64,000 nucleotides of DNA from Planctomycetaceae bacterium (lineage in GTDB: Bacteria; Planctomycetota; Planctomycetia; Pirellulales; UBA1268), in NCBI GenBank assembly GCA_947449135.1, contig CANFQO010000006.1, forward strand, positions 1 through 64,000, given 5' to 3'. Below, in pieces: positions 706 through 4,910 of this stretch; the stretch's first letter is position 1; the number at the start of each line of letters is the position of its first letter. The position numbers were made by a program, and so were the translations under genes. Below the pieces are notes generated by a model that saw nothing but the letters and a program-made list of their open reading frames with translations, had not been told where the DNA came from and searched no databases.

Positions 706-2391
706 TCACCCCCACTCGGACCATGATCCGGTCGCAATCACATAGCCGCTGAGCAGGGCGTTTGTCGTTGCATGTGCAACCACGGCGTCGCAGAGCCGTC
801 GTTGCCAGTAGAGCGCCGCGGCAAACAACATGCCCGCCACGATGCCCGCCAGCCAGGCCTCGCCGTGAAGAAAGCCAAACGCAGCGGAAGACGCGAGGAA
901 AGAGAACCACGAAAACTGTCCCTCAGGCACGCTCTCGGTGTCTTCCGCGATACAGCGACGGATCACGAACCCACGGAAGAACAACTCTTCGGCGATCGGC
1001 ACGGTGACCACCGATCCCACGATTCGAAAGAGGAGCCAGAGGGCCGCCCATGGCTGGCCCAACTGGTAGGGATCTAAGTGCAGGGAGTTCTGCTGCGCGA
1101 CATGTGCGACTGAGGCGTCCGCGGTCGCGTGCGTCAGGGCTATCCATGCCGCGAACGCCACCACGCCGATGGCCACCGCCACCGGTGAGATCCGCCACTC
1201 CCGCCACGCAGACGACGGCCGCAGATAGAGCAGCACCGCCGCCACGCAGACCACCCGCACCGGATAGAGAACGTCAAACCCGCTCGTAAATGCCCTCGTG
1301 AGCATGGTGACGGCGGTGAGGGCCACAAAAGGGAGGATGCAGGCGACGGCAGGAGTGTTCGCGGGATGTCCCGCGTCGACATCGGCGCGGATCACGCCCT
1401 GACCGACCAGCGGCGGTCCGCTCTCCTCTGCCATGCCGATCGGCGCCGCCATGGCACGGGTGAAGAACGGCATCCGCGACGCAGTCCAGATGATTCCCAG
1501 GCCGACCGTGAGAAAGGCGATCCAGCCTGCGGTGGAATGAAACCCGTCCACGGCGATCTCCGGCGAGATCCAGATGCCGACCAGAATCAGCGACGTGATG
1601 CGAACCACATTGGCCAGCCAAACCAACGCGATGCCGACGGGAATTAGCAGCAACGACTGCGGAAAGCGATGCAGCCGTCGGAACCACCAGAGGTAACCGG
1701 CCAGCAGCACTGTGATCAGGCCGATGCCATGAAAGCCCGAGCAGGCAGGAGCTATCCTGACCTGAAAGGCGTCGGTGCCGATGATGAACGGCTCAGGCCT
1801 CACGACCGGCCCACCGGCAAAAGGACGAAGCAGGAGTTCCACAAGCCTGACGGTCGTGTCGCCAGTGCGGCTCCAGAAGCTCTGAGTGAGGTCGCCCATG
1901 TTCCAGGCCGCGACGGCAAATATTGCACACACTCCCGCACTGCCGATGAGCGTCCACGCGAGGGCCCTGCTGGGGGCAATCCCCGCCAGCGAACACGCGA
2001 GCCACGCTGCCGCCGGCAGCGTTACGGCGAGTGTCGTTCCCCAATCGCCTGGGGCCAGCCGCAAGGCCCCAGTGGACAGCCCGCCGAGCGCGGCTAAGAC
2101 GCCAGCAAACGACAGCAGTTGGCCAGCGATGAGTGGCCAGTAGACACGGGCCGACCGGTACTCGGCGCGGTGCTGCTCAATATGGGCCCACAACCCGCCG
2201 AGCATGCCCACCAGGGCGATCGCCACGACCCGCTTCCCAGGAATCGCCAGCAGCCAGCCACCGTAGAACCAGCCGACAACACAGCCTTCGACGGCAAGGA
2301 TCACGGCGAGGATCGCGAGAGCTCGCCACGCCTGCTCTGGTTCACCACCCGAAGCCTGCCGTGCCTGTGTATCAGAGTGCATGGCAGACAT
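706..2391 (-). CDS. xrtE: exosortase E / CPBP-family protease fusion (VPEID-CTERM system type)
   Basis: A 561-residue polytopic membrane protein with two enzymatic halves. Residues about 20-310 are exosortase-like, with the catalytic Cys in APACSGFHG (C217), Arg in NVVRI (R264) and His in GFHSTAGW (H285). Residues about 370-560 form a CPBP (Abi) intramembrane metalloprotease domain, with EELFFRGF (E468, E469, R473), FGFLHG (H509) and HATTN (H540, N544). Exosortases process C-terminal sorting signals of exported proteins; the E subclass is known as this natural fusion. An internal ATG at 2382 is an alternative start. No substrate with a recognisable CTERM tail was seen in this window, so the target must be elsewhere or diverged. 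Confidence 0.87.
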   Translation of the reverse strand: MSAMHSDTQARQASGGEPEQAWRALAILAVILAVEGCVVGWFYGGWLLAIPGKRVVAIALVGMLGGLWAHIEQHRAEYRSARVYWPLIAGQLLSFAGVLAALGGLSTGALRLAPGDWGTTLAVTLPAAAWLACSLAGIAPSRALAWTLIGSAGVCAIFAVAAWNMGDLTQSFWSRTGDTTVRLVELLLRPFAGGPVVRPEPFIIGTDAFQVRIAPACSGFHGIGLITVLLAGYLWWFRRLHRFPQSLLLIPVGIALVWLANVVRITSLILVGIWISPEIAVDGFHSTAGWIAFLTVGLGIIWTASRMPFFTRAMAAPIGMAEESGPPLVGQGVIRADVDAGHPANTPAVACILPFVALTAVTMLTRAFTSGFDVLYPVRVVCVAAVLLYLRPSSAWREWRISPVAVAIGVVAFAAWIALTHATADASVAHVAQQNSLHLDPYQLGQPWAALWLLFRIVGSVVTVPIAEELFFRGFVIRRCIAEDTESVPEGQFSWFSFLASSAAFGFLHGEAWLAGIVAGMLFAAALYWQRRLCDAVVAHATTNALLSGYVIATGSWSEWG

Positions 2392-3773: not shown

Positions 3774-4910
3774 ATGACCGACATTCCCGATCCCTTCCGC
3801 GACACGCGCCGCACCGACGGCGTTCTCTCCTGCCCCTATGGGAGCGAGGAGATTCTCATGATTCTCCGCCACGAGGATGTCCGACGGGCGGCGAAGGACT
3901 GGAAGACATTCAGCTCCGATGCACCGTTTCGCGTGCCCGTTCCCTCCGAGGAGGATCTGCGGACGATGCGGCAGCTGCCGATCGAGGTCGATCCTCCGGA
4001 GCACACCGATTACCGCCGGCTCGTCGAGCCTTTCTTCCTGCGTGCCCGGGAGCCCGCCTTCCAGGCACGCATCGAAACCCTGATCCGTGACATGCTCCGC
4101 GAGGCGATCGCCCGCGAGTCGATCGAGGTCGTCAATGGCTTTAGCCTGCCGCTCCAGTCGCGGGCCCTCGCCGTCCTGCTCAACCTCCCGCAGACGGAGG
4201 CCGATGTCTGGATCAACTGGGGCATTCATGTGTTTCATGGTGCCGGCGGCAGCCAGGGCGCAGGCCTCGAGGCCTATCACCATGCCCAGTTCGACCGGGC
4301 CGCGGCCAATCCGGGCGACGACTTCTTCAGTCTGCTCACCCAGGCCACCTTCCGGGGGCGGCCGCTGTCGCGTGAGGAGATGATGGGGTTCGCCAACCTC
4401 ACCTTCGCCGGCGGCCGTGACACGATCATCCACACCGTCGCCTGCGTGATCCACCATCTGGCGACGCACCCCGCAGACCTGGAATTCCTGCGGGAGGACC
4501 GCGGCCGGATCATCCACGCCAGCGAGGAATTTTTCCGTGTGTTCATGCCGCTGACGCACATCGGGCGGGTCTGCCCGGTGGAGACCGAAGTTCATGGCGT
4601 GAAGGTCGAGGCGAACCACCGCGTCTCCCTCGGCTGGGCGTCGGCCAACCTCGACGAGCAGGCGTTTGAGTCGCCCGGCGAGATTCGGCTCGACCGAAAA
4701 CCCAATCCTCATGTCTCGTTTGGATTTGGGCCGCACCTCTGCCTGGGAGCGGCACACTCCCGCACCGTGCTGCGGGCACTGCTCGCGGTCTGCTGCGACG
4801 AGGTGGGCGGCATCCGGGTGCTCGGGGCGCGGAATCGCGTGGAGCAGACCGCGGCTTATGACCGGCCGTTGGGGTTTGACTCGCTGCTGGTCGCCATGGA
4901 GCCGACCTGA
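3774..4910 (+). CDS. cytochrome P450
   Basis: A 378-residue soluble bacterial-type P450. Diagnostic features: IEVDPPEHTDYRRLVEPFF (B/C-helix region), an I-helix with FAGGRDTIIH near residues 209-218 (the AGxDT oxygen-activation motif with an extra Gly/Arg), a K-helix ExxR within SEEFFRVF, and the heme-binding loop FGFGPHLCLG with the axial cysteine near residue 323. The enzyme would use an external ferredoxin and reductase; neither is encoded nearby. The short spacing after the YheT-like hydrolase suggests possible co-transcription. Substrate unknown; carotenoids, lipids or xenobiotics are all possible. Confidence 0.93.
   Translation: MTDIPDPFRDTRRTDGVLSCPYGSEEILMILRHEDVRRAAKDWKTFSSDAPFRVPVPSEEDLRTMRQLPIEVDPPEHTDYRRLVEPFFLRAREPAFQARIETLIRDMLREAIARESIEVVNGFSLPLQSRALAVLLNLPQTEADVWINWGIHVFHGAGGSQGAGLEAYHHAQFDRAAANPGDDFFSLLTQATFRGRPLSREEMMGFANLTFAGGRDTIIHTVACVIHHLATHPADLEFLREDRGRIIHASEEFFRVFMPLTHIGRVCPVETEVHGVKVEANHRVSLGWASANLDEQAFESPGEIRLDRKPNPHVSFGFGPHLCLGAAHSRTVLRALLAVCCDEVGGIRVLGARNRVEQTAAYDRPLGFDSLLVAMEPT

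Follow-up and report, generated by a model that had tools for sequence, protein, structure and literature searches.

An exosortase E/protease fusion in a planctomycete as the candidate processor of dispersed VPEI-type C-terminal tails

Introduction

The described systems closest to the locus analysed here are exosortase E with VPEID-CTERM tails, exosortase A (EpsH) with PEP-CTERM tails, and myxosortase with MYXO-CTERM tails. The pairing of exosortase E (TIGR04162) with VPEID-CTERM (TIGR04161) is already present in the names of the NCBI models. The PEP-CTERM tail is a tripartite C-terminal signal with the motif VPEP, found on dispersed substrates, and exosortase A is not known to have a fused protease. 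In myxobacteria a CPBP protease is itself reported as the sorting enzyme; the myxosortase MrtX has 239 residues, lacks an exosortase half and is reported to have dozens of substrates, and its tail has an invariant Cys (PMC11980579). A search of the open literature found no paper joining an exosortase with VPEID-CTERM, and none of the open papers containing the letters 'vpeid' was, by its title, on protein sorting.

The gene studied here lies in a window of 64,000 nucleotides, by which we mean the whole stretch of planctomycete DNA that was analysed. Its product, XrtE, resembles the exosortase E/VPEID-CTERM system in scoring above the family cut-off, in the layout of the tails found in the same genome (PEI motif, helix, basic end) and in the closeness of a tail gene to that of the enzyme, seen in most of the best 80 of 272 related loci. 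The system differs in that this genome has no partner adjacent to the enzyme gene, that its five dispersed tails are below the TIGR04161 cut-off or unmatched by that model, and that up to 34 tails per genome occur in its family. With PEP-CTERM/exosortase A it shares the tripartite signal and the dispersed substrates, and one passenger family bears either tail, depending on the genome; in contrast, the motif is VPEI[D] here, and XrtE falls below the exosortase A cut-off. With myxosortase it shares a CPBP protease, but XrtE falls below the myxosortase cut-off as well. What is new is the spread of the tag within the family, its exchange on a passenger, and the occurrence of very small substrate-like proteins, here called mini-substrates.

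Results

The gene at 706..2391 (-), stop codon included, starts with ATG and encodes a protein of 561 aa. As the original prediction held, this is an exosortase fused to a CPBP protease: Pfam placed Exosortase_EpsH (PF09721) at residues 42-305 (E 3.5e-10) and an Rce1-like CPBP domain (PF02517) at residues 452-546 (E 4.6e-14; 52.9 bits against a cut-off of 22.4), and in NCBIfam the protein scored above the cut-offs of TIGR04162 (196 bits against 150), which upholds its assignment to exosortase E, and of TIGR03008 (136.4 bits against 81.05). It scored below those of exosortase A (XrtA; TIGR03109, 35.2 bits against 208) and of myxosortase (Mrt_core, 23.3 bits against 100). XrtE belongs to an established family, exosortase E/protease. 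Using PF09721 and an AF2 model of all 561 residues, we delimited the exosortase half to residues 1-306 (1474..2391, (-)), a linker to residues 307-347 (1351..1473, (-)), which was assigned to the cytoplasmic side by charge, and the CPBP glutamic intramembrane protease half to residues 348-561 (709..1350, (-)), on the basis of PF02517, TIGR03008 and a separate AF2 model of this part. Both catalytic sets had been predicted to be intact, and both are present together in the one chain: the exosortase nucleophile Cys217 (codon 1741..1743), Arg264 (1600..1602) and His285 (1537..1539) in the first half, and Glu468-Glu469 (985..990) and Arg473 (973-975) of the EExxxR motif, His509 (865..867) and the HxxxN motif from His540 to Asn544 (760..774) in the second, all on the (-) strand. 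In an alignment of 71 fusions all of these residues, with Asn544 in addition to those predicted, were invariant.

For the full-length protein the AF2 model had a mean pLDDT of 87.2, with low confidence in the linker (pLDDT <50 at residues 322-338), and gave the exosortase half eight predicted membrane helices, of which helix 5 is long, with short strands ahead of Cys217. The CPBP half, modelled alone as residues 345-561, had a mean pLDDT of 92.2. A fold search with the whole-chain model against solved structures gave no significant relative, a sequence search with the 71-row fusion profile matched no PDB chain at E up to 10, and Foldseek alone gave no match at E 0.001 with the CPBP-half model. 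Fold comparison of that same model placed SpdC (6u0o; Z 7.7, 4.5 A over 139 aligned residues) and Rce1 (4cad; Z 6.0, 4.9 A over 158 aligned residues) in the top rows, both middling scores (Z <8), with the next row at Z 4.1. The topology was read by applying the positive-inside rule to the charged loops between the AF2 helices. Averaged over the 71 sequences, the presumed inner loops 74-84, 237-246, 304-347, 390-402, 476-494 and 530-533 carry 2.1, 3.0, 3.5, 2.9, 3.2 and 1.6 K+R, and the short outer loops only 0.1-0.8; the exceptions are the presumed inner loop 139-143, which is weak (mean 0.8 K+R), and the long outer stretch 171-219, which averages 3.1 K+R and 4.1 D+E. If this reading holds, C217, R264 and H285 would each sit close to the outer end of a helix and E468/E469 close to an inner one. 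H540 would then be near where the last long helix ends on the inside, and H509 would be flanked by two short helices entering from that side. This placement of the residues suggests that the active sites are on opposite membrane faces, with the exosortase site outward and the protease site inward.

The original prediction had also stated that no protein in the window carries a sorting signal and that the substrate was therefore unknown. The first statement was borne out by both scans of the window: a 33-tail profile matched none of its 894 closed ORFs of at least 40 aa at an E below 1.8, and a simple scan for a motif, a hydrophobic stretch and a basic end returned no candidates. The second holds for the window only. 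In the genome, which is 96% complete with 3.69 Mb on 169 contigs, a search for C-terminal tails yielded five of VPEI type, all on other contigs. Of five weak matches to the VPEID-CTERM model TIGR04161, three read as genuine C-termini; the remaining two, on contigs C67 and C32, were rejected, as they were not tails when read. A profile of these first three tails added two more, the next match being noise (E 3.7). The five proteins end in tails of the form VPEI[D/A/T]P...G-[S/V]-L-x-L-x-ERR: L008, VPEIDPASFGSALALLLGSLGLVERRSRRK, on a GDSL-type hydrolase (Pfam); L013, VPEIDPGSFGSVLALVMGSLALLERRKML, on a mini-protein some 57 aa long; L014, VPEIDPNSLGSVLALVLGSLGLLERRRLKAA; L015, VPEIAPNSLGSVLALVAGVLGLIERRR..., carried by a ubiquitin-domain protein (PF00240, E 2.7e-13); and L016, VPEITPHSFSSVVCLLVGSLALLERRK.... 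Relative to the TIGR04161 cut-off of 33 bits, three of them scored 24.0, 17.1 and 9.4 bits, with the other two not listed, and a second scan of three of the proteins gave 20.1 bits, 16.6 bits and no match; with the threshold set this loosely, 9 of 14 control genomes had matches to the model as well, all of them under the cut-off. Because the tails are below this cut-off or unmatched we file them only as VPEID-like, and the candidate substrates of this genome are, as judged from their tails, a variant that the curated tail model does not cover. Neither this NCBI model nor the open literature searched gave substrates already catalogued for this lineage.

Of 272 confirmed loci related to XrtE the best 80 were compared, whose titles name planctomycetes, acidobacteria, gammaproteobacteria, myxobacteria and others, with Methylobacter and Singulisphaera among them. 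The profile built from the five tails of our genome, which is independent of the tails in these loci, gave 60 matches in 45 of the 80 loci among 17,855 ORFs; 54 of the 60 end within 1.5 kb upstream of the fusion on the same strand, three lie at 1.5-5 kb upstream, three within 1.5 kb downstream, and none farther away. A pattern requiring PE[IVLFM] served to select the locus tails, and an all-tail profile built from them found at least one tail gene near the fusion, mostly just upstream, in 58 of the 80 loci, a count that is partly by construction because the profile derives from the same loci. Nine of the 22 loci lacking a tail match have less than 500 bases of upstream sequence. Adjacency occurs in several phyla among these 80 loci. 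In L056 (60% identity) a mini-gene stands immediately upstream of the fusion, and its tail agrees with one from our genome at 25 of 29 positions. In our own genome, unlike most of the 80 loci, the XrtE contig yielded no tail gene. The only opposite-strand tail gene among the profile matches in these loci lies just past the 3' end of the fusion (L109:11132-11338 (-)).

A further conserved neighbour gene was not found among 659 neighbour ORFs of the same 80 loci: in this clustering, whose 110-aa limit most tail genes fall under, the largest cluster beyond tail genes comprised eight loci and was SdrD-like, and the single scanned representative of a cluster of five loci was a polysaccharide export protein. 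In the eight loci (L064, L071, L076, L081, L084, L086, L106 and L129), all planctomycete by title, a large SdrD_B/SpaA-like protein, identified by Pfam scans of two of the eight, is encoded downstream of the fusion on the same strand; in L076, where the start of this protein is ambiguous, the open frame and the fusion overlap. The PEID tail is absent from the three of these proteins that have a stop in view. A tail mini-gene lies upstream in six of the eight loci, and in the remaining two the fusion is at a contig end. The arrangement has the appearance of a planctomycete three-gene cassette of tail mini-gene, XrtE and giant SdrD_B/SpaA-like protein.

Tail proteins were examined as a set of 74, comprising 73 from the best 80 of 272 loci and one from our own genome, with start codons and signal peptide cuts taken from crude in-house scores. 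The PEI motif is preceded by at most 30 residues in 29 of the 74 and by at most 36 in 38, and the total length is at most 65 aa in 36. About half of the neighbouring tail partners in these loci are thus mini-proteins of 49-65 aa in which a signal peptide runs almost straight into the PEID tag, and since the length ahead of PEI is about that of a signal peptide they carry almost no passenger. Several longer partners have low-complexity bodies rich in Gly, Pro or Lys, and a few have long ordinary bodies. One locus (L124:8388-9389) has five tandem mini-genes of 49-52 aa upstream of XrtE, each with a signal peptide-like stretch and a PEID tail. TIGR04161 at the loose threshold of E up to 10 matched 51 of 66 tail proteins, a set that leaves out eight of the 74 (L059, L065, four of L091, L111 and L112), all long-bodied. 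The 73 locus tails, which had been picked by pattern, and the five of our genome aligned without gaps into PEI motif, helix and basic end. Position 4 is Ile in 70 of the 78 tails and position 5 is Asp in 66; within the helix Leu stands at position 15 in 77 and Gly at position 18 in 68, followed by Arg at position 26 in 68, whereas P2 and E3 were required by the selection and are not evidence of conservation. There is no invariant Cys in VPEI tails.

Co-occurrence of tail and fusion, a check proposed along with the original prediction, was assayed in our genome and 58 relatives. A fusion was counted only where both halves matched, since many relatives match the CPBP half alone; both were present in 16 of the 59 genomes, in two of which (G405 and G411) they are on different contigs. 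The tail was present in all 16 and in none of the other 43, so that tail and enzyme agree without exception (Fisher p 9e-15, a value that ignores kinship, many of the compared genomes being close relatives). One of the 16, G394, has an in-frame TAG in its fusion (L151), yet eight tails in its genome. In an even, phylum-wide sample of 392 genomes, ours included, eight have the fusion, seven above the family cut-off and G017 at 118 bits. Among the best 20 candidates per genome the 33-row tail profile found a tail in six of these eight and in none of the 384 without a fusion; two rows of that profile come from G373 and kin of G103, and the matches in those two genomes are therefore not independent. 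With the same limit on candidates the five-tail profile matched three of the eight, our genome among them, and one of the 384. This last genome (G352) was rejected as a case, because its match is not VPEI and reads as an ordinary VPEP PEP-CTERM tail. A diverged PEID tail adjoins the fusion in G340, a seventh case, with a profile E of only 0.011; around the most diverged fusion, that of G017 (24% identical), there was no recognisable tail within about 8 kb, nor was there one genome-wide among the best 20 candidates. Some exosortase is present in 159 of the 392 genomes, including the eight with the fusion, and among the best 20 candidates per genome a VPEI tail was found in none of the 151 having only non-fusion exosortases. 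As judged from these genome sequences, the pairing of enzyme and tail is well supported.

The number of tails varies widely among the genomes that have them. Our genome has 5, and the other fusion-bearing members of the family, 14 in all with ours, have 8, 11, 8, 1, 31, 27, 16, 7, 9, 34, 13, 7 and 24 (E up to 1e-4); at the same threshold one tail each was found in two fusion genomes from other families of the order. In the phylum sample the other five genomes with a tail match have 1, 3, 1, 1 and 2 tails among the best 20 candidates per genome.

Exchange of tails was assayed with one passenger only, that of L016 without its tail, which was searched in 106 genomes, our own and relatives, and matched in 14. 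Five genomes with the fusion, G000, G393, G395, G400 and G411, have it with a VPEI..[E/Q]RR end, whereas in G408 and G422, both fusion-less and 65% identical in the passenger, the ends are VPEPATWFA... and VPEPALVGW...RTRRR. The copy in G394, which bears the fusion, has no tail in its frame. In G458 and G467 the tail is VPEI and in G473 VPEP, all three belonging to genera of which other members were examined for the fusion. One of two copies in G441, which is without the fusion, ends in LPEPS, and neither the other copy nor that of G466 has a terminal tail in the frame read; the passenger of G477 ends in VPEPASL. Such exchange would be expected of a tail that serves as an exchangeable address for whichever enzyme the cell has.

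Our own genome also encodes a second exosortase (L007, contig C11:22445-22720), which scored 63.9 bits against the TIGR04178 cut-off of 23 and has no CPBP match on its contig. Four proteins (L134-L137) end in VPEPST PEP-CTERM tails; these matches are weak (E 0.03-0.4), at a threshold at which 12 of 14 control genomes match, two above the cut-off; we accepted them on the ground that each of the four, when read, is a VPEPST tail. They may be substrates of the second exosortase. Because of these four tails and the second exosortase beside XrtE, the genome appears, from its sequence, to run two parallel sorting systems.

Discussion

We propose that XrtE is very probably the enzyme that processes the C-terminal VPEI[D]-type signal on at least five predicted secreted proteins of its own genome, for which it is the best candidate. 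Substrates would enter by way of an N-terminal signal peptide and be held in the membrane by the tail, with the PEI-D motif outside, the hydrophobic stretch with its conserved Leu and Gly next, and ER/RR inside. The exosortase half (Cys217/Arg264/His285), at the outer face, would most likely cut at PEI-D, after which the protein could be released or passed to an acceptor, and the CPBP half (Glu468/Glu469/Arg473/His509/His540), in the inner half of the membrane, would most likely cut or clear the helix and its basic stub. Intramembrane proteases often need a helix-breaking residue. This two-sided division of labour, in which Cys217 would make the outer cut and the CPBP half an inner one in the stub, is drawn from the topology of the modelled sites and from the conserved tail positions I4, D5, L15, G18 and R26; we put it forward tentatively, as a possibility that falls somewhat short of being probable.

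Other assignments of the cut, or no cut at all, have to be weighed against this proposal. A CPBP half that removes the tail by itself, as a myxosortase would, with the exosortase half serving only as a transferase or persisting as a relic, is in keeping with the reported cleavage of MYXO-CTERM tails by MrtX, a CPBP protease (PMC11980579), and with the invariance of EExxxR, His and HxxxN in the 71 fusions. However, C217, R264 and H285 are just as invariant in the same 71 fusions, the VPEI motif is of the PEP-CTERM type, and the invariant Cys of MYXO-CTERM is missing from VPEI tails, so we consider this explanation unlikely. It is far less probable, indeed highly improbable, that the second, unfused exosortase (contig C11) is what processes the VPEI tails while XrtE serves another target. 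That enzyme does exist, well above its cut-off, but the VPEPST tails of the same genome would suit it; moreover, none of the 151 sampled genomes with only other exosortases has a VPEI tail among its best 20 candidates, and a survey confined to XrtE neighbourhoods gave a nearby tail gene for 58 of the best 80 of 272 loci.

The tail might instead be a plain membrane anchor that is never cut, its co-occurrence with the fusion arising from shared ancestry; many of the compared genomes are close kin, and cleavage itself is something that we infer. An anchor would have no need of the Leu (77 of 78) and Gly (68 of 78) conserved inside the helix, and neither adjacency in several phyla among the best 80 of 272 loci nor a passenger that swaps its tail type along with the enzyme content of the cell agrees with this explanation, to which we give hardly any credence.

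Returning to XrtE as the processor of the VPEI tails, the observations can be joined in a broader account, which we regard as doubtful as a whole. XrtE would have begun as the maker of a very short surface peptide, with a processed product of a few to about fifteen residues, perhaps an anchor or primer, eight planctomycete loci having the giant SdrD-like protein after the enzyme gene; its substrate would be cut twice, once from each membrane face; and the tag would later have escaped, in this planctomycete family, to dozens of ordinary secreted proteins, displacing PEP-CTERM tags. For the fused exosortase-protease of planctomycetes, the results define a pair of enzyme and signal and put names to the candidate substrates, and a sorting tag is seen spreading within a family and taking the place of another tag on the same passenger. 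The nearly passenger-less minimal substrates are suited to the mapping of cut sites and to work on the chemistry of the exosortase product.

Two minor observations were made along the way. A cytochrome P450-like heme motif, FGFGPHLCLGAAH, was spotted by eye in the window ORF at 3774-4910 (+). The protein with the L015 tail (L207; contig C124 of our genome, ORF 514-1341) is a predicted secreted ubiquitin-domain protein ending in a VPEI tail; a literature search for ubiquitin-like proteins with PEP-CTERM found none, and in G394 the C-terminal part of the protein L161 is very similar to L015 and has the same type of tail.
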